Source: a virus. Taken from it: a stretch of 40,506 nucleotides of DNA. The notes beneath the pieces were generated by a model. That model was not told the origin of the DNA. It saw only the letters and a list, made by a program, of their open reading frames with translations, and ran no database searches. Each line of letters opens with the position of its first letter. Position 1 is the first letter of the stretch. Positions 4,466-35,478 of this stretch are shown piece by piece. Made by a program: the position numbers and the translations under genes. The stretch is taken from positions 1 to 40,506 of the IMG/VR virus record IMGVR_UViG_3300043313_000240, one strand, 5' to 3'.

Positions 4466-4474
4466 AACGCTCTC

Positions 4475-6310: not shown

Positions 6311-6311
6311 G

Positions 6312-8772: not shown

Positions 8773-8773
8773 T

Positions 8774-9490: not shown

Positions 9491-9512
9491 CTATCTCTCC
9501 GTTGTTGCCTTC

Positions 9513-9574
9513 AAAAAAGTGCCGGGCCGCCTTCATGGAAGGAAGGCATCTTACCTACACGTCAGCAGCCCGGC
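9513..9574 (-). terminator. Terminator after the major capsid gene
   Basis: Read on the minus strand, GCCGGGCTGC pairs with GCGGCCCGGC (10 bp with one G-T pair), a small CCTTC/GAAGG inner hairpin sits in the loop, and a run of six T follows (9518-9513). It lies 53 bp after the capsid stop and just before the next ribosome site. It is probably partial, giving more capsid than neck/tail transcript. Confidence 0.8.
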
Positions 9575-9626
9575 TTCTTCCCTTTCGCGTGTTCGGCGCG
9601 TCAGGAAGCCTACAACCTCCAATTGA

Positions 9627-10655: not shown

Positions 10656-10674
10656 TCCACATGGGGTTCAGATG

Positions 10675-11940: not shown

Positions 11941-11978
11941 GATGCTTTCCTTCAGCGCGTTTGATTAGTCGCATGCAG

Positions 11979-12299
11979 TCAGAATGACCGCACTCCGGCC
12001 TTGTACTTTTGGATCGCTGTGTGGATTGCCCGCTTCCTGACCGCTTTTACGTTGGGGTCCGCCGTTGCCCTCTGTTTCGGCGGCAGCTTCTCGTTGCCGA
12101 CCTCGATCAGCCCGTGCGCCTTCCCCACGGCGCGGTACTGTCGTTTCGAGGTGTAGAACTTGCCGTCGACCTGCTCGACCGGGTCCATGGTGTCGCTGAT
12201 GACGAAAGGCAGCGGCATGTTTTCGGCCCGCAGCTTTTCGTGGCGGATCTTGCGGACCCGCCACCTGCCCGGCGCGAACTCCTCCAGCTCAATAGACAT
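11979..12299 (-). CDS. Conserved small protein next to scaffold
   Basis: 106 residues overlapping the upstream gene by 11 nt. It begins MSIELEEFAPGRWRVRKIRHE and contains ISDTMDPVEQVDGKFYTSKRQYRAVGKAHGLIEVGNEK, a block I associate with small proteins beside podovirus capsid genes, and a basic C-terminus (RKRAIHTAIQKYKAG). No catalytic motif is visible. Function unknown; a role in head assembly is inferred from position only. Confidence 0.7.
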   Translation of the reverse strand: MSIELEEFAPGRWRVRKIRHEKLRAENMPLPFVISDTMDPVEQVDGKFYTSKRQYRAVGKAHGLIEVGNEKLPPKQRATADPNVKAVRKRAIHTAIQKYKAGVRSF

Positions 12300-14058: not shown

Positions 14059-14060
14059 GT

Positions 14061-15008
14061 TTACTTCCTGCCCTTGCTCTTCTTGGCGGCCTTCTTCGGC
14101 TTGGCCTTGGCCTTGGTTGTCCGCGAGGTCCGCTTGGTCTCGCGGGCCGCAGGCGGATCTTCAGGATCGAGGAACTCAAACTCCAGCGCATCACTTTCGT
14201 GCTCGCCGTTCCGCACCGTCACCGGGCAGACCGCGGGCACCACGAACAGGCTCGGCTTGACGCCGGTGGTGACCTCGGTCTCGCTGACAAACGTGGTCGG
14301 CTCGACCAGCCCGTTGAAGTAGATCACACTCTCCGGCGTGAACCCGGTGCCGTGCACATGCATCACGATGTCCTCGGCATCGCCAGCGTCCGCCTCGTCA
14401 GGGTCGAGACGCTCTAGATCCGGCGCCTCGTCCAGCTCACCCTCGCCACCGCCCTCGCCTTCGCCGCCCTCCTCGGTGGCCGATCCCTCGCCACCGACGT
14501 CGCTGCCGGGAGGCTCGTTAATGCTGGCGTTGTCGAGGGAGCTGCCGCCCGGCCCCGGCGTCAGCGTAGTGTTCGGCTTGGGATCTGACCGCAAGGCTGC
14601 CGCGCCGAGCGGGTTGTGGTCGGATTGCTCCGCCGGTGTGCGCGGCTCGTTGATCGACTTGACCGGCGGCGGGTAGACCGGCTGGACGCCGCCCTGCTCC
14701 ATGCCGAGGCTGGTGGGGTCGACAATGCCGCCGGGATTAATAACCTTCGGGTCGGGTTGCACGCTCGGGATCACCGGCGTGACGTTATCGCGCGTCTTCT
14801 GACCGGGATTGTCGCTCGGGCTCTCCGGCTTGCCGCGCAGTCCGGTGCGCTCGTCCATCGGCTCGTCGAGGTAACTGTGGGGCCGGTCTACCTGCGCCTT
14901 GCGGACGTCGTCGATGCGGACGTCTTGCTCGGGCACCGCCGGGCGGTCGCCCTGCATGGGCATCGGGCGGTCCTTATGCTCGGTTTTATCTTCGTGCTTG
15001 GTCGCCAT
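14061..15008 (-). CDS. Virion-block protein with acidic linker and IPT/TIG-like domain
   Basis: 315 residues from ATG 15008, chosen because GAGGGAG lies seven bases upstream; the longer start at 15047 is out of range of it. The first half is hydrophilic (KHEDKTEHKDRPMP...), then a Gly/Glu tract (about 155-190). Residues about 210-280 form an IPT/TIG-like Ig fold (MHVHGTGFTPESVIYFNG, PTTFVSETEVTTGV, VTVRNGEHESDALEFEF). The Lys-rich C-terminus has KAKAKPKKAAKKSKGRK. The basic tail could contact DNA or capsid. It groups with the two neighbouring Ig-type proteins. Confidence 0.7.
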   Translation of the reverse strand: MATKHEDKTEHKDRPMPMQGDRPAVPEQDVRIDDVRKAQVDRPHSYLDEPMDERTGLRGKPESPSDNPGQKTRDNVTPVIPSVQPDPKVINPGGIVDPTSLGMEQGGVQPVYPPPVKSINEPRTPAEQSDHNPLGAAALRSDPKPNTTLTPGPGGSSLDNASINEPPGSDVGGEGSATEEGGEGEGGGEGELDEAPDLERLDPDEADAGDAEDIVMHVHGTGFTPESVIYFNGLVEPTTFVSETEVTTGVKPSLFVVPAVCPVTVRNGEHESDALEFEFLDPEDPPAARETKRTSRTTKAKAKPKKAAKKSKGRK

Positions 15009-15070
15009 GGTCGTCTCCCTCATGTGCGCGGCAGGATCGCCGCGCACCCCAATAACGTTTCAGTGGCGCA

Positions 15071-15817
15071 TTAAGTCCAAGTGATGGTGCGGGTAGATGG
15101 CACGGCGACGCCGCCGAGCTTGACGTCTACCGATTGTGTTCCGGCCAGCGCCTTCTTGGCGATAGTCGCAGTCAGCGAGGTGGCGCTGACATAGGTCGTG
15201 GTCTGCTCGCGATTATCGACCCAGATCCGGCAACCCGGCACGAAACCGGTCCCGGTACAGGTCAGCACCGCCGTGCCTGACGCCCCCGAAGTTGTCGGCG
15301 CCTGCAGGGCCGCCGTCAGCGTCGGGTTAGTGGTCGGCGACAGCGAGGAGGCGTGCGTGGCGTTCGGCCCTGCCGCAACCGTCGCCGCAGTCTGCACCGG
15401 CCCCGTCGAGTAGGTCTTGGAGGTGTCAAAAGTGCCGCTGACGACAGTGTAGGTGATGTTGCCGGGGTTGGTCACCACCACCTCGGTGCCCGAGCCTTCG
15501 TGTGGCACACTGGTCGCGGCAGGCACGACGCCGTTGGCCGCGCCGGGGTAGCTACCCTCGGTGCCGCCAGCAGTGGCGCCAGAGCCGACACCTTGGGTCA
15601 GCGCCGCTGTATTGGTCGCAAAGGTGCCGACCGGGCCAGCAGCGCCGTCATCGAAATACGGGACATTGCCCGCGGTGTTGATGATCGTGTTATCGGCGTA
15701 GTCGATGTAAAGGTTCTTGCTGAAGTTCGGCGGATTGGGGCTGGTAGCCCCCGTGCAGCTCATGTTGGTCGGCGGCGTCGGGTTGGGCGGGGTAACGGTC
15801 AGTGCTGACTGCGCCAT
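15071..15817 (-). CDS. Virion-block protein with C-terminal IPT/TIG-like domain
   Basis: 248 residues, GGAG ten bases before the ATG. The N-terminal half is Thr/Pro/Gly-rich with NPGNITYTVVSGTFDTSKTY. The C-terminal 75 residues (VLTCTGTGFVPGCRIWVDNREQTTTYVSATSLTATI ... QSVDVKLGGV) follow the IPT/TIG pattern and resemble the domain in the next gene. It is likely a decoration or head-fibre component; no enzymatic signature was seen. Confidence 0.65.
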   Translation of the reverse strand: MAQSALTVTPPNPTPPTNMSCTGATSPNPPNFSKNLYIDYADNTIINTAGNVPYFDDGAAGPVGTFATNTAALTQGVGSGATAGGTEGSYPGAANGVVPAATSVPHEGSGTEVVVTNPGNITYTVVSGTFDTSKTYSTGPVQTAATVAAGPNATHASSLSPTTNPTLTAALQAPTTSGASGTAVLTCTGTGFVPGCRIWVDNREQTTTYVSATSLTATIAKKALAGTQSVDVKLGGVAVPSTRTITWT

Positions 15818-15826
15818 GCTAGTCTC

Positions 15827-17089
15827 CTATGGGTTGCGGTAATAATCCTGTGCGGCCAGTGCTCCCATGCCTGCGGGAGCCGCACCCGCAATGCCGTACT
15901 TTTTCATGATGTCGATGATCGACGGATCGAACACGACGTAGTTGCTTGAGCCGGTGCCTGCGCCGCGCGATCCCTGATCGAGATACTTGATGCCGGGGAT
16001 GCCTGCTTCGTAAAGGCGTTCAGATGCCTTCACCTTGTCACGGTAACCACCCGGAACCAGTTTTTGGCTTTCGTATATCTGCGCCCCGCTTGGATCAGGC
16101 AGCGGTTTTGGAATGCTGATGTTTGGATTGCCTTCTAGCGCCGCCAGCAAAGCGTCGTCATGCGAACGCATCAGGTTTTTATCAGCCTTAAACCCAAACC
16201 TCTCAAGTGCTGCTCTTACTTCCGGCGACTGTGTATGCAGCCCCCTATCCCAATCCAGCATATGCGCCGGGTCGGCCTTGATGTTGACCTCGTAGGTGCG
16301 CGGGCCGACAGGGGCCTTGCCCTTCAGCATCTCTACCGCACCCTCAAATTGGCGTGGGAAGTTGGCTTGCCAATAACCGTCACGATCCTTGTGCAGATAC
16401 TCCAAGGCCTTCGCGCGATCTGCGCCGCTATTCCTGAGCGCAATGGTTGCTAATGTCTCTGCATCGTTCTGCTTGAACTGCGGGTGTTCGGTAAACGCCT
16501 TCCAATACTGCCCGCCCTGCCCGCTCACCGCCGGGTTCTCGGCGAAATACAATCCATGCCCATATACCTGCGCGCCCTCGCCGGTGCCTATCTTCGCCAG
16601 ATCGAACTTGTCGAAGTCGTGCGGCGAGGAGTGGTAGGCGCGGATGCCTTTTATCAACTTGTTCAACGATCCCGCCTCGGCCTCGTCAGGGTTCATGATC
16701 GCGCCTAGCGCGCCAGCGGCCAGCTTATAGCCGACACGGCCCGGCCCGGTCGCCAGCATCAATCCGGCATCCAATGGATCTTGCGGCACGACGCTCTGGA
16801 TCGCCAGCTGGCCCATCACGTCAGCGGCGCGGTTGGCAGTCTGATTGCCCTGCCATGTCGGCCCGCTCGGGACCATCGGCTCGCCGACGTCGGGCAGCTC
16901 CTTCGGCGGCTTGTAGGCGGGCCACATGCCGACGCCGGGCTCAAAGCGTACGGGATGCGCCAGCGCGCCCATCGCAAAGCGGGGGTCTGGCGGCGCCTGC
17001 TGCGGCTGTTCAGGCATCACGCCGCCGGTCGGCAAGCCAGACATCGGGTCGTAATACTCGTCCTGCCGTGCGAGCGAGCCCATCGCCAT
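15827..17089 (-). CDS. ADP-ribosyltransferase-like protein (ART-PolyVal type) in the virion block
   Basis: 420 residues; the start overlaps the upstream stop (TGATG) and has GGGGAGG eight bases before it. Residues 1-145 are a Pro-rich region and a short hydrophobic helix (LMLATGPGRVGYKLAAGALGAI). The ART-like core begins with AYHSSPHDFDKFDLAKIGTGEGAQ (His153), then YGHGLYFAEN (176-185), an inserted helical region, and ends with GIKYLDQGSR (366-375) and NYVVFDP (383-389). This matches the H-Y type ADP-ribosyltransferase family seen in phage polyvalent proteins. In those, NAD+ is used to modify host targets. Location beside the portal suggests packaging into the virion and ejection, as for T4 Alt; activity is unproven. 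Confidence 0.75.
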   Translation of the reverse strand: MAMGSLARQDEYYDPMSGLPTGGVMPEQPQQAPPDPRFAMGALAHPVRFEPGVGMWPAYKPPKELPDVGEPMVPSGPTWQGNQTANRAADVMGQLAIQSVVPQDPLDAGLMLATGPGRVGYKLAAGALGAIMNPDEAEAGSLNKLIKGIRAYHSSPHDFDKFDLAKIGTGEGAQVYGHGLYFAENPAVSGQGGQYWKAFTEHPQFKQNDAETLATIALRNSGADRAKALEYLHKDRDGYWQANFPRQFEGAVEMLKGKAPVGPRTYEVNIKADPAHMLDWDRGLHTQSPEVRAALERFGFKADKNLMRSHDDALLAALEGNPNISIPKPLPDPSGAQIYESQKLVPGGYRDKVKASERLYEAGIPGIKYLDQGSRGAGTGSSNYVVFDPSIIDIMKKYGIAGAAPAGMGALAAQDYYRNP

Positions 17090-17277
17090 CAGCCCAGCCT
17101 CCCCGTCTTATCCTGCGCTACCAACCGCCGGATAATCTCTCGCGTCATCTCCGTTGGCTCGCCAGCCAGACACTCGTAGCCGGGGTGCTTCATGTAATAT
17201 TGCACCCTCTCCTCATACGTCATGCCTGCAGTGACCTTGTTGATTACGGGATCAGACATCACCCACTTAGCCATCAT
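17089..17277 (-). CDS. Small conserved protein after portal
   Basis: 62 residues overlapping the portal stop (ATGA) and the next start (TGATG), so it is coupled at both ends. It reads MMAKWVMSDPVINKVTAGMTYEERVQYYMKH and has a helical C-terminus EMTREIIRRLVAQDK. No known domain was recognised. A second ATG directly follows the first, so the start could be 17274. Confidence 0.65.
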   Translation of the reverse strand: MMAKWVMSDPVINKVTAGMTYEERVQYYMKHPGYECLAGEPTEMTREIIRRLVAQDKTGRLG

Positions 17278-19550
17278 CCCAGCCCTCCGATGCCGTTTGG
17301 CTTCTTCTGCGCCGCCGCCATCTGCCGCTCATTGGCTCTGGCAGCCATGTCCTGCTGCTTGTTCTGGTGCGACTGCGCCATCATCGCTGCCTTCTGCTGC
17401 GCAATCCGCACGTCTTCAGCCTTCTTCACCATCTCCATCTGATGCACTTCGCGGTCGTGCATCTGCTCTTGGCTGGCCTGCACCATCTCCTGCTGCCGAT
17501 CGCCCTGCTTGGCCTGCATCTCGATCTGCTTGATCTGCATCTCGTTCTGCAGCTGCCACTGAACGTGCTTGTCTTTCTGCAGCATCTCGCTGGCCTTCAG
17601 CTTGGCGTCCATTGCGTTCTTGTCGGCGATGGTCTTCTGCTTGAGCTGCTCCAGCTGCATGTCCGCCTTGGCCTTGGCGGTCACGGGGTCGTCGCCCTGC
17701 GGCTGGTCGGCCTTTGCCTTCATCAGCTCAATCAGTTCGTCGATCGCGGCATCGAGCGAGCGGCCCGCGCGGAATGGAGCGGTAGAGAATTTCAGGATCT
17801 CGCCGCAGAACGGCGCCGTCTTCGCATCGTTCTGGATCATGGTCGACAGCTGCGGCAGCAATTGACCAAGCACACCGACGAACTCGGTGCGGCGCTGCTT
17901 CTCGGCGTTCTCGTCCGCCATGATGGTGCTGTCGGTCTCGATGTCGAGCACGAAGCTCTTGGCGCGGTTATCGCCGAGGAACTTCAGCACCTGATCGATC
18001 GTCGGCTCTTCCTGCAGTTTCTGCAGCTTGGCCTGACCCTGCTGCAGTCCCTGTTGTATCTGCTGCGCCTGTGCCGGGTCTTGTTGCTGCGCCTGCTGCA
18101 TCAGCTGCTGCCCCTGCGCCATTGCCTGCTGCAGCGACTGCATCTTCTGCTGCTGCATCTCTTTGGTCGGCAGTTGGGTCTGGCTCATCTCGATGATGGT
18201 GACGGGGTCGAACTTCTCGGTGATGATCTCGCTCGTTATCTCGACGAGGTCGCGCGCCAAGCGCACCATCTCCTGCTGCTTGTCGCGGATGCGGGTCGAG
18301 CCGTACTGGGTCTTGAGCTGCTGGGCGCCGAGCGTTTCATTTGGGTCGGTCGCGCCGCGCATGATGTCCGACAGTCCCATGATCTGGTAGATGTCCTCGA
18401 TCACCTGTTTGCGCAGCGCGACCAAGGCCGTGATCGTCGTCGCGATCATGTCGATCGGCAGCCAGATGATGACTTCCTTGGTTCCACCAAACGCCGCCCA
18501 GTTGCTGATCGGCACTAGCATGCGGGCCGATGAATGCGTCTTGACCGCGGTCTCGATCGCCTCCGCAAGCTCACTGGTACCGGCGGGGTAGAAGCCCTTG
18601 GCCTCGACCGCGTCGCTCAAGGCGTGGATGCGGCCCGTCAACAAGTTGATCTCATCCAACTGATCCTTGTACTGCAGCACGTCGGGGACAGGGATCAGAG
18701 AGCCGCGCTGTACTGTACCGTAAGCGGGCGGCGGGCACGGAAAGAAGTTCTGCAACTCCAGATGCGGGTCGTCCTCATCGAGGATGTCCTCGCAGCCGTG
18801 GCTGACCCACAGCACGCGGCGTGATCCCTTGTGCCAGATCTCCCAGAATTTGGCCCGCTCGCGGTTGTCGGCGCCGCCGACCTCGGCAGCCTCCTTGTCG
18901 ACCTTGTACTCGGCCTCCTGATAGGCGTCGCCGCTGTGCTTGTGGAAGCGTTTACGCGCCTCGCCGCGCGTCATGTAGGAGGCAGCCGCAACCCAGCCCA
19001 CCTCGCGCCAATTACGGCTGATGCTGTGCAGGAAGTCGCGCCTGCCCTTGAAGTCTATACACACTTTTTCGTGGTCGTAGGTGCCATCACCCTTGCCGCT
19101 CTCGTAGCGGCACCACGCCACGCCGCGGTTGTTCATCGAGACGTCGTCGCGCACCAGCAGCATCAGGTCATTGATGCGCGTGAGATCGAACGCGACCACG
19201 ACACAACGCTCCATCACCTCGGAGGCGGCTTGATAGACCGGCCTGCGGTCCTTGAATTTGGGCGTCACCACCGGCACCGGCGGCTTGGCGTAGATGCTGG
19301 GTTTCAGAACTTCGCAGTTCGCCCAGAACATCTGAAACTCTTTGTCGCGCGCCATGCCCGACAGGCGCTCAAGGCTGGCGTATTGCCGGTCGATCTTGTC
19401 GCAGTGGTTATTCCAGCTCTCGAACGCGTCCTCGCTTTCGAGCAGCAGGTTGAGCCACGCCTTGGCCTTCTTCGGCTCCATCGCCGGATTGTAGTCCTGG
19501 TCCTCATGGCGGACGTCTTCGTCGACCGGCTTGACGGGTTCATCAACCAT
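17274..19550 (-). CDS. Portal protein (P22-like podovirus portal)
   Basis: 758 residues, close to the P22 portal (725). The N-terminal crown/wing region contains MEPKKAKAWLNLLLESEDAFESWNNHCDKIDRQYASLERL and VLKPSIYAKPPVPVVTPKFKDR, a hallmark of this portal group, then VLWVSHGCEDILDEDDPHLELQNFFPCPPPAYGTV and DVLQYKDQLDEINLLTGRIHALSDAVEAKG. From about residue 450 a long Gln-rich coiled coil runs almost to the C-terminus, like the P22 barrel. It forms the dodecameric DNA channel at one capsid vertex and docks the terminase. It lies downstream of terminase, as usual. Confidence 0.88.
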   Translation of the reverse strand: MVDEPVKPVDEDVRHEDQDYNPAMEPKKAKAWLNLLLESEDAFESWNNHCDKIDRQYASLERLSGMARDKEFQMFWANCEVLKPSIYAKPPVPVVTPKFKDRRPVYQAASEVMERCVVVAFDLTRINDLMLLVRDDVSMNNRGVAWCRYESGKGDGTYDHEKVCIDFKGRRDFLHSISRNWREVGWVAAASYMTRGEARKRFHKHSGDAYQEAEYKVDKEAAEVGGADNRERAKFWEIWHKGSRRVLWVSHGCEDILDEDDPHLELQNFFPCPPPAYGTVQRGSLIPVPDVLQYKDQLDEINLLTGRIHALSDAVEAKGFYPAGTSELAEAIETAVKTHSSARMLVPISNWAAFGGTKEVIIWLPIDMIATTITALVALRKQVIEDIYQIMGLSDIMRGATDPNETLGAQQLKTQYGSTRIRDKQQEMVRLARDLVEITSEIITEKFDPVTIIEMSQTQLPTKEMQQQKMQSLQQAMAQGQQLMQQAQQQDPAQAQQIQQGLQQGQAKLQKLQEEPTIDQVLKFLGDNRAKSFVLDIETDSTIMADENAEKQRRTEFVGVLGQLLPQLSTMIQNDAKTAPFCGEILKFSTAPFRAGRSLDAAIDELIELMKAKADQPQGDDPVTAKAKADMQLEQLKQKTIADKNAMDAKLKASEMLQKDKHVQWQLQNEMQIKQIEMQAKQGDRQQEMVQASQEQMHDREVHQMEMVKKAEDVRIAQQKAAMMAQSHQNKQQDMAARANERQMAAAQKKPNGIGGLG

Positions 19551-19731
19551 TATCCACCGCCTTTAGTGGCGGGATTAGCGCCTGCTTGACCGTCAGGCAC
19601 GCCTCGTTGACGCGCCCGCCATTGACGCCGTACAGCATCGCGAGATCCTGCTGATCGATCTGGCGCACATAGTGCATGAACGCCACCGTGATCTTTTCCT
19701 CAAACGTCAGTGCGGTCTTGCGCTCAGTCAT
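19543..19731 (-). CDS. Small HTH-like protein between terminase and portal
   Basis: 62 residues, overlapping the portal start by 8 nt. The stretch TFEEKITVAFMHYVRQIDQQDLAMLYGVNGGRVNEACLTV looks like a simple three-helix DNA-binding unit (recognition helix near GVNGGRVNEAC). Similar short proteins occur beside terminase genes in related phages; a role as packaging cofactor or regulator is inference. Confidence 0.6.
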   Translation of the reverse strand: MTERKTALTFEEKITVAFMHYVRQIDQQDLAMLYGVNGGRVNEACLTVKQALIPPLKAVDNG

Positions 19732-20011
19732 GTCGCTTCGCCTCCATGCGATCGAGCCGCCAGTTCCAGTATCTCATGACGTGATCGTTCTGCTGCGGGT
19801 CCGATGGCGGCGGCAGCGGCGCGAGATCCCACGTCGGGCTCGGCACCTCGAACGGCGTCATCGCATTCGTCACCACGTCTGGCATCACGTTCGACACCGC
19901 GGGCAGCGTGTCGTCAGCGCCGTACCAGTGCCCGCTGAACATCGGGTCGCGGTTGGCCAGGCCGCCGATCGACACTTCCAGTGGCCTGTGGCGCTGCCGG
20001 TTGATCTTCAT
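19724..20011 (-). CDS. Small hypothetical protein
   Basis: 95 residues; ATGA overlap with the upstream gene and 8-nt overlap with the next. Basic N-terminus (MKINRQRHRPLEV), a Pro-rich centre (FEVPSPTWDLAPLPPPSDPQQ) and a C-terminal aromatic helix (HVMRYWNWRLDRMEAKRHD). No family was recognised. Its place in the packaging block suggests a head-assembly or connector accessory. Confidence 0.6.
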   Translation of the reverse strand: MKINRQRHRPLEVSIGGLANRDPMFSGHWYGADDTLPAVSNVMPDVVTNAMTPFEVPSPTWDLAPLPPPSDPQQNDHVMRYWNWRLDRMEAKRHD

Positions 20012-20214
20012 GTCGGATCGCCTTTGATGGCTATCTCCACATCCTCGCCCTCCGGAGGCACGACGCGCGCACGCTTGAATGCCTCACGCGTGCACGTCTC
20101 CGGGTCGTGCCCTTGCGCTTCCAGCTCCAGCAGGGCGACGCAAATGGTGGTGAATTGCTTCGGTGTGACGTACTGCGTTTTCATAGCCGTAGGTGTGACG
20201 TACTGCGTTTTCAT
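20008..20214 (-). CDS. Small protein with a duplicated start region
   Basis: 68 residues from ATG 20214, which overlaps the terminase stop (ATGA). A perfect 30-bp tandem duplication makes the N-terminus read MKTQYVTPTA-MKTQYVTPKQ, so a second equally placed ATG lies at 20184. The rest is a short helical domain (FTTICVALLELEAQGHDPETCTREAFKRARVV). Function unknown. Before the duplication the gene presumably encoded 58 residues. Confidence 0.65.
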   Translation of the reverse strand: MKTQYVTPTAMKTQYVTPKQFTTICVALLELEAQGHDPETCTREAFKRARVVPPEGEDVEIAIKGDPT

Positions 20215-20221
20215 AGCCGTA
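20162..20221. repeat. Perfect 30-bp tandem duplication at the terminase stop/start overlap
   Basis: Bases 20162-20191 and 20192-20221 are identical. Each copy holds the CTATGA overlap in which the large-terminase stop (TGA) and the next ATG share bases. Thirty bp is ten codons, so the downstream frame is kept. The lack of any difference between copies suggests a recent event. Confidence 0.9.
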
Positions 20222-21578
20222 TGCCCTTGTTGAGCGTCTCGACGGGCGGCGCGAGGCGCCAGCCCGTCAGCTTGGGCTCCTTCGGCACGATCCGCGGCGC
20301 GGGCTTGTAGCTCATAGCGAGGTATCGGAAGGCGTCGGCAGGATGCGATGTCCAGTCATGAAGGGGATTGGATTTGAAAGCCTTGGTGTCGTCGTCCCAC
20401 TCTCGTCGATACTGCTCAAGCGCAGATATCCCGCCGTCTTCGCAGCGTGGATGAAAGACGCACAGCGGCAGCATGCGTCGGACGGCGTTGATGCCGTCCT
20501 CCACCGTAGACATGGGTACGAGCATGGGGTGAAGTCCAAGACTGGACATGGTTTCAACTCGGGTTCGTCCGCTTCCCCATTCTTTGACCTTGGCGTCGTG
20601 GGGAACATAATCACTGCCATGTTGCCACCCGTGCTCGTCGTGGATACGATTGATCTCGTCGCGGAAATACTCGACGCCGACATTGCTCGCCGCGATGTGG
20701 TGTAGCAGCACTATCTGCGAGCCCTGTGCCTGCCAAAACCATATCGACGTGTCGTCACGTACACCCAGATCCCAAGCACGATGGACAGGTCGATCAGGTA
20801 GCGCCTCACACGGCAGTATTCGCCCCTCGGCTCGCACGTTGGCCATTTCCATCGCGTAGAACGAGCCCAGGACCATCGCATTGAAGCTGACCTCGTACTC
20901 TTGCTCGTAGGCTGCCCGCCCGGCGTCCTCGCCGTACAGCGCATTGTACTCCTCGCGCGCGTCACGCTGTTGCTCTGCCGTCAGTGCGCCGGTGCTCGAC
21001 ACTGGCAGTAGCTCGGAGAACCAGCCCGGCCTGTTCATCGCGTAGTCGTACATTGACTTGGCGTGGTTGCGTCCGCGCGGTGTCGTAATGAATAATGCGA
21101 AGCCATCGTTTTCTTCAATCATCGGGCGCATGTACGCCCACGCCGATGGATTGCTCAGTGCGTACTCGCTGAACACCACACCGGCTGCCGACGAGCCGAC
21201 CGTACGGCTGTATTGATCGCTGCCAATGCACTGCCACGTACTTCCGTTAATCAACCGGATAAACATCTCGCTGTCGTTGGTCGATGCGCGCAGCTCGATC
21301 GGGAACGCCTCGTCGATGCGCCTGTTTCCCGTGTGCGGATTAACAGAAGTCCATATCGCCTTGCGGGCCTGCGCGTACTCGGGCAGGCAGTGCCAGTAGT
21401 TACCGACTTTCCGAAACGCTGCAACCGCGGTGTGATGAAGCGCGATCTCGTCCTTGCCAGCACGGCGATGCCAGACCGCGATCGCGCGCTTGCCACCGTC
21501 GTGCAGATAATTCCACAGCGGCATCTGGTGAGGTCTTGGCGACCAACCGACGCTCGGTATCTGCACGCGCATGTTCAT
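20211..21578 (-). CDS. terL: Terminase large subunit
   Basis: 455 residues, the ATPase-nuclease motor that packages DNA through the portal. The ATPase has Walker A WHRRAGKD (36-43), Walker B AGVVFSE (132-138; Ser-Glu in place of the usual Asp-Glu) and coupling motif ITTPRG (164-169). The RNase H-like nuclease has Asp270 (AWDLGVRDD), Asp328 (VPHDAKVKEWG) and Asp415 (SHPADAFRYLA), the expected acidic triad. Length is typical. The start overlaps the small upstream gene by 4 nt and the stop overlaps the next start. Confidence 0.93.
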   Translation of the reverse strand: MNMRVQIPSVGWSPRPHQMPLWNYLHDGGKRAIAVWHRRAGKDEIALHHTAVAAFRKVGNYWHCLPEYAQARKAIWTSVNPHTGNRRIDEAFPIELRASTNDSEMFIRLINGSTWQCIGSDQYSRTVGSSAAGVVFSEYALSNPSAWAYMRPMIEENDGFALFITTPRGRNHAKSMYDYAMNRPGWFSELLPVSSTGALTAEQQRDAREEYNALYGEDAGRAAYEQEYEVSFNAMVLGSFYAMEMANVRAEGRILPCEALPDRPVHRAWDLGVRDDTSIWFWQAQGSQIVLLHHIAASNVGVEYFRDEINRIHDEHGWQHGSDYVPHDAKVKEWGSGRTRVETMSSLGLHPMLVPMSTVEDGINAVRRMLPLCVFHPRCEDGGISALEQYRREWDDDTKAFKSNPLHDWTSHPADAFRYLAMSYKPAPRIVPKEPKLTGWRLAPPVETLNKGIRL

Positions 21579-21835
21579 GGCTTTTTCTTCTTCGCGTATT
21601 CAGCTGCGATGTCGCGCAGGATGACTTCGACCTTGCCCTCGATCTTGCTTTCGGTCGGCTGATTTGGTTTGCCCCAGCCGCGGTCGAGTAGCGCGATCGC
21701 AGCGGAGACGCGCGCCGCATCGCTCTCACCGTTAGTGGCGATGCCGCCCAGCGTGAGGATCGACGCCTCGGTCCAGCCGCGGGCCAGCGACTTGATATCA
21801 GTTGGCATTTTCTTTTTTGGCGTAGGATCAGGCAC
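21575..21835 (-). CDS. Putative small terminase subunit / packaging protein
   Basis: 86 residues from GTG 21835, four bases after the upstream stop, with GAGGGTG ten bases before. The core SLARGWTEASILTLGGIATNGESDAARVSAAIALLDRGWGKPNQ is a helical module that I associate with small genes immediately upstream of large terminases in rhizobial-type phages. Ends are Lys-rich (PKKKMP, AEYAKKKKP). Assignment as small terminase rests on position and size, not on a catalytic motif; an ATG at 21808 is an alternative start. Confidence 0.6.
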   Translation of the reverse strand: MPDPTPKKKMPTDIKSLARGWTEASILTLGGIATNGESDAARVSAAIALLDRGWGKPNQPTESKIEGKVEVILRDIAAEYAKKKKP

Positions 21836-21839
21836 TTAC

Positions 21840-22022
21840 TTAGCCACCCTCTAGCTTGCGCAGACGTTCTTGAATTTGCTCGATTTTTTCGTCTATCTGC
21901 AGCTCCAGAATGTAAAGCTGGGCGTCGATACCATCGATAAACGCGCGTAGATCCGCGTTCGATTGCTCGATCGCCTGTCGTTTTGCATCGTCGATCAGCG
22001 GCTCTATTTTTCCGTAGGCCAA
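21840..22022 (-). CDS. Small coiled-coil protein at the head of the late block
   Basis: 60 residues if started at TTG 22022, which has GGGGG five bases upstream; an upstream TTG at 22034 would add four residues but abuts the terminator T-run. There is no ATG. The chain is one long helix: KRQAIEQSNADLRAFIDGIDAQLYILELQIDEKIEQIQERLRKLEGG. It may be a packaging or assembly helper. The weak start lowers confidence that it is translated efficiently. Confidence 0.5.
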   Translation of the reverse strand: MAYGKIEPLIDDAKRQAIEQSNADLRAFIDGIDAQLYILELQIDEKIEQIQERLRKLEGG

Positions 22023-22038
22023 GCGATCCCCCAACGCG

Positions 22039-22080
22039 AAAAAGGCGCGCCTGCGCCCGGATACGGGAACATGCGCGCCT
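22039..22080 (-). terminator. Rho-independent terminator between regulators and late block
   Basis: On the minus strand AGGCGCGC (22080-22073) pairs with GCGCGCCT (22050-22043). An inner CCCG/CGGG hairpin sits in the loop, and T residues follow (22043-22039). It ends the two-gene regulator unit and lies 17 bp before the first late gene, so late expression would need read-through or an internal promoter. Confidence 0.85.
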
Positions 22081-22109
22081 CAAGGGGTGGCGTCAAGTTG
22101 CTGGGGCGC

Positions 22110-22361
22110 CTACCAGCGTTTGTGGGGGTCGGCCTTCCACGGCGGCACGATGAGCTGGACGCCGAGGTCGCGGACGGCGCGGAGTAGCATGGCGTGGGCT
22201 TCTGGCACCTGCGCCGTGCCCCGCCTGTAGCGGGCCGCCGTGGTGGTGGAGATCCCGAGGTAACGTGCACAGGCTGCCATGGACAGGTTGAGATCCGCTA
22301 GGATCTCGTTGAACTGTGCCGAGGACATGGTGCGATCGAGCTGCCAGAGGTGCTTGGTCAT
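22110..22361 (-). CDS. HTH transcriptional regulator (Cro/CI or antitoxin-like)
   Basis: 83 residues; ATGA overlap with the upstream gene. The segment FNEILADLNLSMAACARYLGISTTTAARYRRGTAQVPEAHAMLLRAV fits a lambda-repressor-like helix-turn-helix (turn near LGIST, recognition helix TTAARYRRG). It is the second gene of a unit whose promoter carries a palindromic operator in its spacer, so autoregulation is a reasonable inference. Immediately downstream is the terminator guarding the late block. Confidence 0.75.
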   Translation of the reverse strand: MTKHLWQLDRTMSSAQFNEILADLNLSMAACARYLGISTTTAARYRRGTAQVPEAHAMLLRAVRDLGVQLIVPPWKADPHKRW

Positions 22362-22555
22362 TGCACCTGCTCCAGCTCGTTGTTGAGGTCGGCGATCGCG
22401 GACAGGACGGTATCGCCAATGCCATAGACGCGAATGTGACCATTCTCTTCGTCAACATCATCGGGGAGGTAGGCCATGAAGCAACCATGCGTAGGCTTTT
22501 CAACAGTCACGCGGCTACCGTCGGCGGGGAAGTATATCGTCTGGGTGTTCGACAT
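22358..22555 (-). CDS. Small acidic hypothetical protein
   Basis: 65 residues from ATG 22555, chosen because GGAG lies six bases upstream; a longer frame to 22582 would have an unusual start inside the leader. It reads MSNTQTIYFPADGSRVTVEKPTHGCFMAYLPDDVDEENGHIRVYGIGDTVLSAIADLNNELEQ. Similar short proteins with this 'GIGDTVLSAIADLN' ending look like HicB-like partial folds, but no firm match can be claimed. First gene of the regulator operon. Confidence 0.65.
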   Translation of the reverse strand: MSNTQTIYFPADGSRVTVEKPTHGCFMAYLPDDVDEENGHIRVYGIGDTVLSAIADLNNELEQVQ

Positions 22556-22582
22556 TTGATGCTCCGGTTTGTGTAGGAGCAC

Positions 22583-22612
22583 ACCATACGGTCAAATTGA
22601 CCGGGGTGTCAA
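22583..22612 (-). promoter_or_regulatory. Promoter with palindromic operator in its spacer
   Basis: On the minus strand TTGACA (22612-22607) and TATGGT (22588-22583) are 18 bp apart, a good sigma70-type promoter for the 22555-22110 unit. The spacer holds the 15-bp palindrome CGGTCAAATTGACCG (22589-22603). A further GTCAA (22608-22612) continues the pattern. A repressor bound here would block RNA polymerase. Confidence 0.75.
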
Positions 22613-22648
22613 TCTGCTATCTTTGGAATAATTTTCTCTTTTATTGTG

Positions 22649-22677
22649 TTGACGGCAGCGTCAGAATGAGAGATACC
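22649..22677 (+). promoter_or_regulatory. Candidate promoter for the 22715-23424 unit
   Basis: ttgacg (22649-22654) is followed after 17 bp by gataccaat (from 22672). The -35 is good; the -10 is weak. It is the only candidate in the 159-bp divergent gap for the plus-strand genes. The leader then has cacacaacggag, seen before other plus-strand units. Confidence 0.45.
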
Positions 22678-22714
22678 AATAGCACTGAAGCTATCCACAC
22701 AACGGAGTTACCCA

Positions 22715-22945
22715 ATGTCCTCGATCCACACCCTCATCGACCTCTTCACCGCCGCCCCGACCCTCGCCAACGCCAAGAAGGTCGTCGCCAAGGTCACCCA
22801 CCACCCGATGACCGCCTGCCTCGTCCTCGCCGACGGCACCGCCCAGATCGAGAAGGCGAAGGCGCTCGTCGCCTCCGTCACCCCGCTCGCCGCCGCCACC
22901 ACCTGCAAGATCGCCGAAGCCGCCGACCGCCTGAAGGGGGGCTGA
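22715..22945 (+). CDS. Small hypothetical early protein
   Basis: 76 residues with GGAG eight bases before the ATG. Helical and Ala-rich (LIDLFTAAPTLANAKKVVAKVTHHPMTACLVLADGTAQIEKAKALVASV). No family was recognised. First of three short plus-strand genes. Codon choice is extremely GC-rich at third positions, suggesting strong expression in the host. Confidence 0.7.
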   Translation: MSSIHTLIDLFTAAPTLANAKKVVAKVTHHPMTACLVLADGTAQIEKAKALVASVTPLAAATTCKIAEAADRLKGG

Positions 22946-22948
22946 ACC

Positions 22949-23122
22949 ATGAAGCTGTACGTCGTCACCATCGCCGACCGCCACCCCGCCGCTGGCGAAG
23001 TCGCCTCCACCATCGAGGTGGAGGCCGCCAACAAGAAGGAGGCGATCGCCAAGGCCCGTGGCCTGACCCCGTGGCGCAGCCGCTACGACAGCCCGGTCAC
23101 CTACCGCGCCACCGAGATCTAA
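22949..23122 (+). CDS. Small hypothetical early protein (57 residues)
   Basis: 57 residues, three bases after the previous stop; AAGGGGGG in the end of that gene serves as ribosome site. It reads MKLYVVTIADRHPAAGEVAS then TIEVEAANKKEAIAKARG, a small beta-beta-alpha pattern (strand, strand, helix) common in phage accessory proteins. Function unknown. A strong hairpin follows directly. Confidence 0.7.
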   Translation: MKLYVVTIADRHPAAGEVASTIEVEAANKKEAIAKARGLTPWRSRYDSPVTYRATEI

Positions 23123-23127
23123 CGCAC

Positions 23128-23150
23128 AGGCGGGCCGCGCTGGCCCGCCT
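23128..23150 (+). terminator. Perfect hairpin between small early genes
   Basis: AGGCGGGCC (23128-23136) pairs perfectly with GGCCCGCCT (23142-23150) over a five-base loop. No T-run follows, so it is a weak or Rho-dependent terminator, or an mRNA-stabilising/processing hairpin in the 59-bp gap. Confidence 0.5.
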
Positions 23151-23181
23151 AGACCCCTTCCACACACAACGGAGCTACCCC

Positions 23182-23424
23182 ATGACCACCACCGTACACA
23201 CCGTCAATCACACCGGGTCCGACGAGTTCTCCATCCACGTTCTGGGTCGCCGTGAGCAGCCCGAAGTGGTTGCCATCTTCACCAAGGGCGACAAGCGCGA
23301 GAACCGCGCTAACGCCCTGAAGGCTGCGCGCCAGCTGGCGTTCGAGTTGCGCTGCAAGGTGGCCATGAACCACGGCATCTCGGCCCGGCGGTTCGATGAG
23401 TTCCTGCCGAAGGATTTCCGCTAA
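23182..23424 (+). CDS. Small hypothetical early protein
   Basis: 80 residues; GGAG eight bases before the ATG in a leader (cacacaacggagctacccc) nearly identical to that of the gene at 22715. It reads MTTTVHTVNHTGSDEFSIHVLGRREQPEVVAIFTKGDKRENRANALKAARQLAFEL. Function unknown. Its stop overlaps the stop of the convergent gene on the other strand. Confidence 0.7.
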   Translation: MTTTVHTVNHTGSDEFSIHVLGRREQPEVVAIFTKGDKRENRANALKAARQLAFELRCKVAMNHGISARRFDEFLPKDFR

Positions 23425-31263: not shown

Positions 31264-31805
31264 CGCGCGCCTCCAGCGTAAAACTCGCCGTGCAGGCTGC
31301 GTGCTGCTGTGTCGTATGCCATGGCGGCATCCTTTATGGTTTGAAATGTACCTAGATGCCGCTGCACGTTTTGTATGCGGATATTGGCCCGCCATTTCTT
31401 CCCGCGCGCTCGGCTTACGCCCTTATGTCCAGACGTGTTATCGACACGTCTGTCTGTGTTCCAGTTCTGCTGTGATTTGTTGGCCGACCGGAGGTTATTC
31501 CAACGGTTGTTCGTGCCGTTGCGGTCTTTGTGATCGATAGACCGAGGAGGGTTTTTTCCGGTCATCAGCTTCCATATTATTCGGTGAGCCGCGATCAATT
31601 GCTTGTCTACGCTAACCATGCGGCGGTTAGCGAAGACGTGCCCAGCGACACACCTTGCGTAACGCCGGTTCCACGTCGCCCACGCTTGGGCGTTGGCGAA
31701 ATGCCTCAGTGGGCGGTGTTTCCAGTACAGCTCTCCGGTGCGATGGTGATAAAAAAAGCATTCTTTTAAATGCTTTAGCGGGGGTAGCTTCAGCGACAAC
31801 GCCAT
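31260..31805 (-). CDS. HNH homing endonuclease with AP2 DNA-binding domain
   Basis: 181 residues; GGGGGAAG before the ATG. The HNH core has AHRIIWKLMTGKNPPRSIDHKDRNGTNNRWNNLRSANKSQQNWN (His at SIDHKD, Asn at NNRWNNLR). The C-terminal SGHKGVSRARGKKWRANIRIQNVQRHLGTF-QTIKDAAMAYDTAARSLHGEF is an AP2 domain. This is a free-standing phage homing nuclease of the common HNH-AP2 type, which copies itself into related phages. It overlaps neighbours at both ends, so it does not break a gene. Confidence 0.9.
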   Translation of the reverse strand: MALSLKLPPLKHLKECFFYHHRTGELYWKHRPLRHFANAQAWATWNRRYARCVAGHVFANRRMVSVDKQLIAAHRIIWKLMTGKNPPRSIDHKDRNGTNNRWNNLRSANKSQQNWNTDRRVDNTSGHKGVSRARGKKWRANIRIQNVQRHLGTFQTIKDAAMAYDTAARSLHGEFYAGGAR

Positions 31806-32149
31806 GACTTCCCCCTGATCGTTTTCCTCAACCCGTGCCGGGTGCAGATGTCGCCGGTCTTCGACGCGTGCCGCTCGGCCTTCACCCTGTCGAGCTTGGG
31901 CCAGATCCCCGGCCCGCTGTCGGCGATCGGATCCAGCTGCACATCCAGCGCCGCCGCCATCGCAGTGACGTCGGGGTCGGTCAGGTCGACCATGCGACCG
32001 CCGACCATCGAATTGCCGTTGAGCCGGTAGGCCGTCTTCAGGGCAGCTGCGATCGCCTCGTCACTCGGTCGCTGTACGGGATCTGGGTAGTCTCCCGCTG
32101 CGGCTGGCGAGGCCAGCAACAGCAACAGCAATGCTGTGGAGTATTTCAT
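31790..32149 (-). CDS. Exported hypothetical protein
   Basis: 119 residues; ATGA overlap with the repressor-like gene. MKYSTALLLLLLASPAAAGDYPD is a Sec signal peptide with cleavage after AAA (about residue 18). The mature part has QRPSDEAIAAALKTAYRLNG and two cysteines near a basic C-terminus (GDICTRHGLRKTIRGKSWRCR), possibly a disulfide. No lysozyme or known periplasmic domain was recognised. An exported protein beside a repressor may act on the host envelope (exclusion or lysis), but this is speculative. Confidence 0.7.
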   Translation of the reverse strand: MKYSTALLLLLLASPAAAGDYPDPVQRPSDEAIAAALKTAYRLNGNSMVGGRMVDLTDPDVTAMAAALDVQLDPIADSGPGIWPKLDRVKAERHASKTGDICTRHGLRKTIRGKSWRCR

Positions 32150-32899: not shown

Positions 32900-32987
32900 C
32901 ATCACTGCAGTCCTCGCCGCCACCTTCACCGTCGCGATGCTGGTCGCGGTCTACGCGCTGGTCATCTCCGAGTGGAGGGCGATGTGA
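32892..32987 (+). CDS. Small membrane protein (31 residues)
   Basis: 31 residues: MYDITAVLAATFTVAMLVAVY then ALVISEWRAM, one transmembrane helix (about 6-25) with the short tail outside or inside unclear. It overlaps the previous stop by 8 nt and the next start by 4 nt, with GAGG at 32883. Position in a tightly overlapped series supports translation. It could be a single-helix holin-like or inhibitor peptide. Confidence 0.55.
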   Translation: MYDITAVLAATFTVAMLVAVYALVISEWRAM

Positions 32988-33166
32988 TCTACCCGCATTA
33001 CACGGTCTGGAAGGATCACGTCCGCGGCCACTTTGAGGTCGTCAAGTGGCCCGGACCCGACATTGCCGTCGTGGTGCAGACCAACATCAAGACGCGGGCC
33101 AAGGCCGAGGAGGCCTGCAAGATCTGGCAGGCTCGCGCCGCCCTCGCACCGGAGCAGGACAAATGA
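32984..33166 (+). CDS. Small protein ending in AALAPEQDK tag
   Basis: 60 residues from GTG 32984, with GGAGG five bases upstream and GTGA overlap with the previous stop; the GTG at 32972 is less well placed. It reads MIYPHYTVWKDHVRGHFEVVKWPGPDIAVVVQTNIKTRAKAEEACKIWQARAALAPEQDK. A beta-hairpin then helix. Its last ten codons lie in the 31-bp junction repeat shared by other genes of the array. Confidence 0.65.
   Translation: MIYPHYTVWKDHVRGHFEVVKWPGPDIAVVVQTNIKTRAKAEEACKIWQARAALAPEQDK
33136..33166 (+). repeat. 31-bp gene-junction repeat, copy 1
   Basis: Identical over 31 bp to copy 2 at 33306-33336. It encodes the tail AALAPEQDK, the stop, and the overlapping ATG of the next gene (AAATGA). 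Copies 3 (33572-33600, diverged) and 4 (33968-33998, two mismatches) share the same core (cgccctcgcaccg). Confidence 0.85.
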
Positions 33167-33336
33167 GCGAACTCTTGGTTGTTTATATCGAGGTATTGAA
33201 AGTCCGCATCAAACAACTGGAAACGACGCTGCGGCAGATTGCGGCACTGGATCAGAAAATTGTGCCTGCCAGCGACCGTCTTGCCATAGCTCGAAGTCTG
33301 GCCCACGCCGCCCTCGCACCGGAGCAGGACAAATGA
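33163..33336 (+). CDS. Small coiled-coil protein ending in AALAPEQDK tag
   Basis: 57 residues, ATGA overlap on both sides. MSELLVVYIEVLKVRIKQLETTLRQIAALDQKIVPASDRLAIARSLAHAALAPEQDK: a leucine-zipper helix (IKQLETTLRQI), a variable spacer, then an Ala-rich helix and the shared tag. The same layout returns in the 33843 gene. Function unknown. Confidence 0.65.
   Translation: MSELLVVYIEVLKVRIKQLETTLRQIAALDQKIVPASDRLAIARSLAHAALAPEQDK
33306..33336 (+). repeat. 31-bp gene-junction repeat, copy 2
   Basis: Exact match to 33136-33166. It contains the stop of the 57-residue gene and the ATG of the next. The exact identity of copies 1 and 2 next to divergent flanks argues for recent duplication or gene conversion. 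Confidence 0.85.
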
Positions 33337-33617
33337 CCCGACAGGAAATCATTGACCTGATCCACAACGAGTATGATGCCGCACCAGCCCACTACAAGCT
33401 GGGCGACAACTGGGATGACGGCAGCGGGCGCATCGCCGATGTCATCATGCAGCGCATCGAGGCGCTGGAAGCGGCGCTGTGGGTGTTTACCGGAGTTCTC
33501 AGAGCACCCAGTTCATATATCAACGACGCCTATGAGTTGCATGTAAAGCGGTTAGAATACGAGAAAGCCTGCGCCGCACTCGCACCGAAGCAGCCACAGG
33601 AGAGAGCGGATGGCTAA
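33333..33617 (+). CDS. Small acidic protein with tag-like C-terminus
   Basis: 94 residues, ATGA overlap. MTRQEIIDLIHNEYDAAPAHYKLGDNWDDGSGRIADVIMQRIEALEAALWVFTGVLRAPSSYINDAYELHVKRLEYEKACAALAPKQPQERADG. The segment IEALEAALW matches the 33843 gene, and CAALAPK is a diverged form of the tag, so this is a member of the same small family with an extra N-terminal domain. Confidence 0.65.
   Translation: MTRQEIIDLIHNEYDAAPAHYKLGDNWDDGSGRIADVIMQRIEALEAALWVFTGVLRAPSSYINDAYELHVKRLEYEKACAALAPKQPQERADG
33572..33600 (+). repeat. Gene-junction repeat, copy 3 (diverged)
   Basis: Shares cgccgcactcgcaccgaagcag with the other copies, one base changed in the first ten. It has lost the stop/start part, so the gene continues seven codons further (QERADG). 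Confidence 0.7.
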
Positions 33618-33846
33618 AGAAACGATGACGCTAAATCTCTCCGAGCGCGAAATGGACGTGCTCGAAAATCTCGCCGTCGAGAGCGATATGAGCAAGACGG
33701 CTGTGATGCGCCAAGCCCTTCGCCTCTATCAGCTCGTCCGCGTTCGAGCGCAGGCCGGTGAGCGCATTTTCTTTGAAGGTGATGATCAGCGGCGCGCGGA
33801 GTTCATCGGTCCGTGGCTGCACGATGCTGTGGGAGAAGTGAAATGA
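33610..33846 (+). CDS. Ribbon-helix-helix DNA-binding protein
   Basis: 78 residues, overlapping the previous gene by 8 nt, with AGGAGAG before the ATG. TMTLNLSEREMDVLENLAVESDMSKTAVMRQALRLYQLVRVRA fits the RHH pattern: a strand (MTLNLS), helix A (EREMDVLENLA), the turn ESDMSKTAV, helix B (MRQALRLYQ). RHH proteins are small dimeric repressors or antitoxin-type regulators. It may regulate this array or another phage promoter. Confidence 0.75.
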   Translation: MAKETMTLNLSEREMDVLENLAVESDMSKTAVMRQALRLYQLVRVRAQAGERIFFEGDDQRRAEFIGPWLHDAVGEVK

Positions 33847-33998
33847 CTAAGGAAGAAATGGCCGCCCGCATCGAACAACTGGAAGCGGCGCTGTGGGAGC
33901 TAATAGAGGTCTGTGAGTGCTCTGATGTTTACATTAAAGCGATGGATAACACAGTAAAGCAGGCCCGCGCCGCCCTCGCACCGAAGCGGGACAAATGA
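33843..33998 (+). CDS. Small coiled-coil protein ending in AALAPKRDK tag
   Basis: 51 residues, ATGA overlap on both sides. MTKEEMAARIEQLEAALWELIEVCECSDVYIKAMDNTVKQARAALAPKRDK. The helix RIEQLEAALWELIE matches the 33333 gene, and ARAALAPKRDK is the shared tag. The centre is variable. Function unknown. Confidence 0.65.
   Translation: MTKEEMAARIEQLEAALWELIEVCECSDVYIKAMDNTVKQARAALAPKRDK
33968..33998 (+). repeat. 31-bp gene-junction repeat, copy 4
   Basis: Differs from copies 1 and 2 at two bases (cgaagcggg for cggagcagg). It again holds the tag codons, the stop and the ATG of the next gene. Confidence 0.8.
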
Positions 33999-34351
33999 TC
34001 GATCAGTTTTTCACTGACACCGATGACCTCGCCAGCGAGTTGGCAACGGATATCGCGAACGCCTTTAGATACAAGGCAAAGCAACTAGGCGCGGATGTCT
34101 CAATAGACAGCCTTTGCGACTTTCACGGCTACGTTCAGGGTACGATAGCGGACCGCCTGCGCGGTGCAGGATCGAGCATGACACACGATCAAGCAATCGA
34201 ACTGGTGGAAGAACTCATCCAGGCGCACCATGATTATGAGTTCTACGGCGATAACTATTACCGCCAAGAATACCTCGCCACGAAAAAGAAGGTAATCGCC
34301 GTGCTGACCACCCCCTCGGTCTCGCGCCCACCTAACGGAGATGCGACATGA
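33995..34351 (+). CDS. Small acidic hypothetical protein
   Basis: 118 residues, ATGA overlap. It reads MIDQFFTDTDDLASELATDIANAFRYKAKQLGADVSIDSLCDFHGYVQGTIADRL and ELVEELIQAHHDYEFYGDNYYRQEYLATKKKVIAVLTTPS. Helical and acidic; no recognised domain. It follows a tag-bearing gene and has no tag itself. Confidence 0.6.
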   Translation: MIDQFFTDTDDLASELATDIANAFRYKAKQLGADVSIDSLCDFHGYVQGTIADRLRGAGSSMTHDQAIELVEELIQAHHDYEFYGDNYYRQEYLATKKKVIAVLTTPSVSRPPNGDAT

Positions 34352-34722: not shown

Positions 34723-35478
34723 ATGCGACGCCTTTTGTTATCCCTTACTGCTCTGGCTGCCTTTGCGGCGGCATCCCCCGCCAAGGCTGATCTTGTTGCC
34801 GGTGGTCTTACCTTCACGGGTAACGGCACCTTACTCCAGTTGGAGAATGTCGTCCCCGGCGGTAATCAGCCCCGCAATATTGCCTGCGTCATCTGCGGCG
34901 AGAACCAGCCGCAGCAGCCCACCGGCTTCGGCTACAACGATTTTGGCAACAGCGGCAACACCAGTACCATTAACGCCTTCTCGTCCGGCGTCTTCCGCGA
35001 TCATCTGGCCGACAACACCATTAACACCGGCTACGTCGTCGATGCTGGCAGTTTGTTTCGCTTGGCATTGCTGGGCCGTAGCGATTTCTCCATCGGCGTT
35101 GACATTAACGACACCAATCAAGCGCAGATCCTTGAGAGCTTCTGGTTTCTCAACCTCACGCAACGCACGGTCCTTGCTGCCTTCTCTCCCGGACCGGGCG
35201 GAACTGCGGTGCCATCCATTAACAACGGTACCGGCTTCCCGGACTACACACTTACAGGATTTGACTTGAACCGTGGAGACATCGCTGTTGGCGACCGGAT
35301 CATCTTTCTGGCCCGCATGAGCAATATGAACGACGGCCCGGACAGCTTCTTCCTGACACAGACATCGGCAGTGCCGGAGCCTGCGACGTGGGCGATGATG
35401 ATCCTCGGCTTCCTCGGCGTCGGCGGTCTCGCCATGCGCAAGCGCCGCCGCGAGGGTCACGCTTTCCGCGTTGCCTGA
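34723..35478 (+). CDS. Exported PEPxxWA-CTERM sorting-domain protein
   Basis: 251 residues; GGAG eight bases before the ATG. A Sec signal peptide (MRRLLLSLTALAAFAAASPAKA, cut after residue 22) precedes an Asn/Gly/Thr-rich beta-type body with CVICGENQP (55-63). The C-terminus is the full PEPxxWA-CTERM signal: VPEPATWA (217-224), a hydrophobic helix (225-238) and the basic RKRRR (239-243). In Alphaproteobacteria such proteins are processed by exosortase and sent to the cell surface or biofilm matrix. The phage carries no exosortase, so it must use the host's. It sits between a terminator and a hairpin, as an independent moron. The function of the body is unknown. Confidence 0.85.
   Translation: MRRLLLSLTALAAFAAASPAKADLVAGGLTFTGNGTLLQLENVVPGGNQPRNIACVICGENQPQQPTGFGYNDFGNSGNTSTINAFSSGVFRDHLADNTINTGYVVDAGSLFRLALLGRSDFSIGVDINDTNQAQILESFWFLNLTQRTVLAAFSPGPGGTAVPSINNGTGFPDYTLTGFDLNRGDIAVGDRIIFLARMSNMNDGPDSFFLTQTSAVPEPATWAMMILGFLGVGGLAMRKRRREGHAFRVA

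Follow-up and report, generated by a model that had tools for sequence, protein, structure and literature searches.

In this work, we analysed a 40,506-nt uncultivated virus record (IMGVR_UViG_3300043313_000240, positions 1-40,506; hereafter the window) and found that a stop/start joint of about 24 nt, CTCGCACCGGAGCAGGACAAATGA, named J1 here, links small genes in the window and recurs far beyond it, in many other viral contigs. We propose that J1 is probably a dual-purpose module, namely a translational joint and at the same time a short-homology recombination site, which has spread between phages, and that the window carries what is likely a short and partly decayed member of a type of cassette array found in several unrelated phage groups. 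Additionally, a second repeat, J2, lies inside the array open reading frames (ORFs), and there is good reason to think that it joins and exchanges protein halves as J1 does whole genes. In the following, G000 is the window, and the other G-numbers and the L-numbers are the viral records and loci compared.

The joint-bearing gene array of the window

The window encodes the terminase, portal and major head proteins of a tailed phage, together with a Holliday-junction resolvase, a prim-pol/helicase, an HNH endonuclease and, by a sub-threshold match, a PD-(D/E)XK-like nuclease. The closest isolates by terminase are Rhizobium phage RHph_I3_18 (60%) and Bradyrhizobium phage ppBjS10J-1 (59%), and from these relatives and the gene content a Hyphomicrobiales host may be guessed. 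A host search with CTNGCNCCNGARCARGAYAARTGA across 84,980 prokaryote species returned one match only (L043), which is unrelated and attributable to chance.

All the genes and repeats of the array lie on the plus strand. Gene 1 (32984-33166, ending ...KIWQ-ARAALAPEQDK*) is joined to gene 2 (57 aa, 33163-33336) by J1 copy 1 at 33143-33166, and gene 2 to gene 3 (94 aa, 33333-33617) by copy 2 at 33313-33336; both copies match the consensus without mismatch and provide the stop of one gene, the Shine-Dalgarno (SD) motif GGAG and the ATG of the next. J1 copy 4 (33975-33998, two mismatches) similarly links gene 4 (51 aa, 33843-33998, MTKEEMAA-RIEQLEAALW...ARAALAPKRDK) to a 118-aa ORF at 33995-34351. 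As the earlier note had described, stop and next start lie inside the repeat, TGA overlapping ATG as ATGA in these three joints. The tags and their underlying DNA occupy 33137-33166, 33307-33336 and 33969-33998, and the repetition of this DNA holds in that copies 1 and 2 are identical over 31 bases and copy 4 differs by two mismatches, whereas the supposed third copy is a relic. This relic, CTCGCACCGAAGCAG, assigned to repeat family D2, lies inside gene 3 at 33579-33593 and reads ALAPKQ within the degenerate-tag C-terminus ...ACAALAPKQPQERADG*; it makes no stop/start joint there, and the following gene has its own, different SD (AGGAG) and an ATG at 33610. That gene (33610-33846), which is tag-less and encodes a ribbon-helix-helix, CopG-like protein (PF01402, 21.2 bits against a cut-off of 20.5), separates the gene that ends at 33617 from the one that ends at 33998, so that the four tagged genes are not adjacent as had been thought. 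A codon-degenerate J1 pattern occurs at exactly three sites of the 40.5-kb window and at none in 100 shuffles.

The regions flanking the tags had been called unrelated apart from an IEQLEAALW helix, and the DNA encoding this helix is a dispersed repeat in its own right. This second repeat is J2, the RIEALEAALR-coding repeat CGCATCGAGGCGCTGGAGGCGGCGCTG (or CGCATCGAACAACTGGAAGCGGCGCTG), which occurs as a diverged copy in gene 2 (RIKQLETTLR, 33205-33233) and as further copies in gene 3 (RIEALEAALW, 33453-33482) and gene 4 (RIEQLEAALW, 33867-33896).

J1 across viruses and its conservation as DNA

A search with a pattern left free at third codon positions and requiring TGA found J1 in 31 other viral contigs, and a frame-agnostic DNA pattern added further ones. 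With up to five mismatches, there are 77 copies in 38 viral records including the window, compared with 0-1 in shuffled controls, and the 37 records other than the window originate from 26 metagenomes. The copies lie on a single strand per contig, clustered in one or a few array regions. An upstream ORF of at least 40 codons reads into J1 in 71 of the 77 copies, and a downstream ORF of at least 40 codons begins at J1 in 75. The ATGA overlap is likewise present in 75 of 77 copies; as the counting script demanded ATG, the ATG is not independent evidence, and the overlapping TGA is the better evidence, with the caveat that the third-position-free pattern also required TGA. At L055, J1 precedes a 451-aa ORF with ATGT, namely the start is kept and the stop lost.

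Terminases recovered from 15 of the J1 records fall into eight groups with less than 35% identity between groups (G000/3/6/10/17/21; G020; G002/30/31; G032; G005; G011; G034; G008). Meanwhile, 18 relatives of the window terminase found by homology search, including several records longer than 40 kb and one whose terminase is 84% identical in the aligned region, contained no J1 within 3 of 19 mismatches, nor did a crude detector see in them a comparable array with analogous joints. Therefore, J1 arrays are patchy within a lineage and common to several lineages. A search of the phage genomes in INPHARED gave no clear J1 match, and tblastn of two array proteins against that collection gave none; the best INPHARED match, in Gordonia phage GTE8, reads GCACCGGAGCTGGAGGAATGA and was judged a coincidence. 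Contig L127/L168 (IMGVR_UViG_3300042818_000004) is, in the stretch read, 99.995% identical to window positions 3206-23205, the array lying outside the matched part. The 62-kb contig of G008 bears array sequence at both ends (236-262 and 61464-61851), as if a circular map had been cut inside the array, and several other contigs also end within arrays.

Across 71 deduplicated copies, conservation climbs from about position -33, reaches 97-99% at GGAG (-12 to -9), remains high to +4 (97%) and drops to 44% at +5, ending exactly at ATGA. The GGAG stands 8 nt before the ATG, and the bases upstream of it (CTCGCACC) are nearly as conserved as the SD itself. Alanine in J1 is encoded by GCA in 61 of 63 codons, compared with 13% of the Ala codons in the same contigs. 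Single-base departures from J1 comprise 31 amino-acid-changing and 18 synonymous changes, half of the latter being CAG>CAA alone (31 and 9 without it); about 25% synonymous changes are expected without selection on the protein (P=0.07), and no protein-level selection on the tag was detected among these departures. Because substitutions that alter the amino acid occur at roughly the chance rate, the AALAPEQDK tag, which had been suggested to be a protein signal, is mostly a by-product of the DNA, namely J1 read in the frame of the upstream gene. J1 also differs less than the adjacent homologous sequence (9.8% versus 16.5%, P=0.0004, from non-independent pairs). The site is asymmetric and unstructured, with no RNA hairpin or stable fold (fold z-scores -0.1 to +1.8).

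Several other features were noticed in these records. PEP-CTERM proteins (family F1), with a signal-peptide-like start and a PEPxWxM-type C-terminal anchor, the last residues of which are in most cases FRLA/FRVA or similar, are encoded by 18 array-region ORFs (34723-35478 in the window), and a PEP-CTERM-related family is present in 12 of 16 J1-bearing genomes, usually just downstream of the array; family F1 had no match in INPHARED, and a literature search found no paper on phage-encoded PEP-CTERM. A conserved leader with an inverted repeat, CGGTGCATTCCGCACC...CTGATCAGGAG, occurs in 12 records (L014 near 4583, plus strand; also G002, G004, G007, G008, G009, G017, G018, G020, G028, G030 and G032), and where checked it lies on the array strand just before the PEP-CTERM gene; it gave no Rfam match in the three loci tested. 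Upstream of many arrays are small secreted-looking proteins (family F0) with the conserved C-terminus CTRHxMRKVxxxxRSWRCRK, one being encoded at 31790-32149 on the minus strand of the window. In the terminase group of the window, a second ribosome-site-like repeat, CACAACGGAG, reminiscent of the start-associated sequences (SAS) discussed below, precedes several ATGs (window ~22695-22717 and ~23162-23184; G043 record, L157, near 5099, 15963, 16940 and 17714).

Exchange of genes at J1 and probable exchange of protein halves at J2

Alleles of one gene (MTDREPVSHA...) are 83-95% identical in DNA from the ATG onwards in G007, G009, G013 and G019, and the four cassettes upstream of them are mutually unrelated beyond the tag. 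Comparable cases are MMWGRHKENG (G005/G018 versus G007), MTPDREPLAQ (G016/G032) and MNEAELGFEL (G001 versus G005/G016/G031). G013 and G019 differ by one whole repeat-bounded cassette, a difference that the earlier note had proposed looking for among relatives: 179 nt are present or absent exactly between J1 copies, the left flank being 96.6% identical up to and including the first J1 and the right flank 87% identical from the second J1 onwards, with the two flank matches overlapping on the sole J1 of G019. The arrays of L035 and L058 differ between flanks that are ~92% identical on both sides, and G005 and G031 share an array segment 95% identical over 338 nt with terminases only ~30% identical. 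Furthermore, the gene 1 homologue in G001 is tag-less (ending ...EIWEKREAQR*), and a homologue of the G009 protein MISFGKGD... ends IKKIEHKR* in place of the tag; therefore, J1 occurs on genes that do without it elsewhere. The proposal that cassettes are exchanged at the joint by homologous recombination is thus supported as to the exchange, through swaps, precise gain or loss, unrelated genes and tag-less homologues, and homologous recombination would be the likeliest route.

The junction between G008 and G017 is one-sided, with J1 on the right and unrelated sequence on the left, which indicates that illegitimate recombination also occurs. In L026 (G017; ~913-1156 of the reverse strand), a one-sided exchange leaves a reading frame open across J1 (CPRTGARQM), and a fusion of the two neighbouring genes could result.

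The comparisons all rest on metagenome contigs, the J1 carriers being uncultivated viruses with no isolate among them, and four of the best swap partners (G007, G009, G013 and G019) come from a single metagenome (3300043313). Short-read assemblers can mis-join at repeats of 30-39 nt, and some contig-level exchanges may be affected; the G005/G018 junctions, however, are identical in two metagenome assemblies and one in G031, from a third, is 95-100% similar, which argues against a general assembly artefact.

J2 recurs inside array ORFs, at times in several copies per protein. Its codon haplotypes agree within genomes in 85 of 97 cases, against 58.8 expected (0 of 5000 shuffles), and the codon variants differ between phages with related terminases, a pattern that points to recombination, or to recent amplification, inside genomes. 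Such within-genome homogenisation was seen for J2 but not for J1 (5.26 versus 5.32 mismatches). In the window, the N-terminal part of gene 3 resembles G012 before J2 (IHNEYD..WDDG.GRIAD.IM), and from the first J2 base (33453) to 33574 it matches a G004 gene with 93% DNA identity, after which the J1 relic follows; gene 3 thus looks like a chimera joined at J2. A shared coiled-coil function may remain a partial explanation for J2.

Mechanism, alternatives and relation to known systems

On the basis of these findings, each cassette is a small ORF, and J1, which links it to its neighbour, holds in succession the end of the ORF, its TGA, the SD GGAG and the following ORF's ATG. As J1 supplies the stop, the ribosome site and the start, an exchanged cassette would stay in the operon and be translatable beside any neighbour, and exchanges at J1 are proposed to survive because these three elements are left intact. 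That GGAG precedes the ATG of ATGA by 8 nt would fit translational coupling. Near-identical J1 copies would offer roughly 24-39 nt of homology to phage recombination within and between genomes, so that cassettes could be gained, lost and traded at J1, and J2, inside many ORFs, would perform the same role for protein halves. Exact identity over 24-39 nt could serve annealing-type phage recombination, and homologous recombination of this type appears the likeliest route of exchange, although RecT or ERF, the annealing proteins looked for, turned up in just 5 of 23 J1-bearing records. The arrays may also be of benefit to the phage that carries them.

The main rival to homologous recombination is selection on translation alone, wherein J1 would be purely a SAS-like initiation site, either optimal or recognised in a special way and preserved by selection, exchanges would be illegitimate and only those leaving J1 intact would survive. 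The peak of conservation at GGAG and ATGA, the lack of structure, the one-sided G017 junction and the J1 of L055 that keeps its start without a stop all agree with this explanation. We nevertheless consider it unlikely, since CTCGCACC upstream of the SD is conserved almost like the SD, breakpoints land on J1 repeatedly, the terminase relatives manage without J1, and J2, an intra-ORF repeat with no ribosome-site role, exhibits similar dispersal at the DNA level and similar breakpoints.

Two further alternatives are much less probable. That one coiled-coil gene was simply duplicated in tandem, its ends conserved and its middles diverging, would account for J2 and the tag being common to many array members and for the mutual similarity of genes 2-4 of the window; however, gene 1 and many tagged proteins (F10, MISFGKGD.., MSQPKRK..) are unlike the coil family, two non-coil tagged proteins have tag-less homologues and J1 is found across unrelated phages, so that this origin is already contradicted for non-coil cassettes and is very improbable overall. 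A dedicated site-specific recombinase acting on J1, as in an integron-like phage cassette system, would explain the uniform short site, the cassette arrays and their precise gain and loss, but tyrosine recombinase domains were found in only 2 of 23 J1-bearing records and serine recombinases in none of the 23, no recombinase-like family common to most J1-bearing genomes was found, and J1 is asymmetric and unstructured; we regard this as the most remote of the explanations. A more far-reaching form of the dual-purpose reading is that J1 and J2 constitute a two-level shuffling system in one host community, whose sequences are kept identical since recombination requires it, namely a selection for evolvability. 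This extension is tentative and rather doubtful; if true, J1 would trade whole genes and J2 protein halves among unrelated phages of that community.

Compared with known systems, integron gene cassettes likewise form arrays in which small genes share a joining sequence, but no common integrase was found for the J1 arrays, which also lack a folded attC-like site, and their joint is coding. The SAS known from cluster K mycobacteriophages measure 13 bp (GGGATAGGAGCCC) and lie for the most part in gaps >50 bp (PMC3203893). They resemble J1 in that numerous nearly identical copies, largely in one orientation, occupy the ribosome-site position of many gene families, and in conservation extending beyond SD pairing. 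J1 falls outside their definition, as its sequence is other than GGGATAGGAGCCC and 75 of 77 copies are ATGA overlaps rather than gaps >50 bp; moreover, it is 24 nt long, belongs to coding sequence, overlaps the stop of the upstream gene, is found across phage lineages and coincides with exchange breakpoints. The promoter early stem-loop (PeSL) elements of T4-like phages (Arbiol 2010 and Comeau 2014, as cited in PMC4503421) are also repeated between small genes and reported to mediate modular shuffling, but consist of a promoter and a stem-loop, whereas J1, which forms no hairpin, is a joint for translation within the coding sequence. Closest are the boundary or linker sequences of phages (PMC3029335): in mycobacteriophage Island3, the C-terminal 18 residues (~50 bp) are common to two adjacent genes at the DNA level, and a single gene distinguishes this phage from Brujita. 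At the majority of mosaic junctions, no boundary sequence could be detected (PMC3029335). Like the known boundary sequences, J1 is a short conserved sequence at module edges where the sequence relationship between relatives changes; unlike them, J1 is a single 24-nt sequence that links dozens of genes of unrelated kinds across no fewer than eight phage groups, has several copies in a genome and includes a stop, an SD and a start. Since J1 and its arrays failed tests for features by which SAS, PeSL elements and integron arrays are recognised, the best reading is that J1 behaves like the proposed boundary sequences and resembles SAS and PeSL, being neither of them.

In conclusion, these arrays bear on the long-standing question of whether phage mosaicism arises via homologous exchange at boundary sequences or via illegitimate recombination plus selection. 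J1 could serve as a hook for hypervariable accessory-gene loci in viral metagenomes. As a boundary sequence found many times across unrelated phages, it has a built-in reason for exchange to be harmless, namely that it carries the stop, the ribosome site and the start; therefore, the boundary-sequence model of phage mosaicism becomes directly testable.
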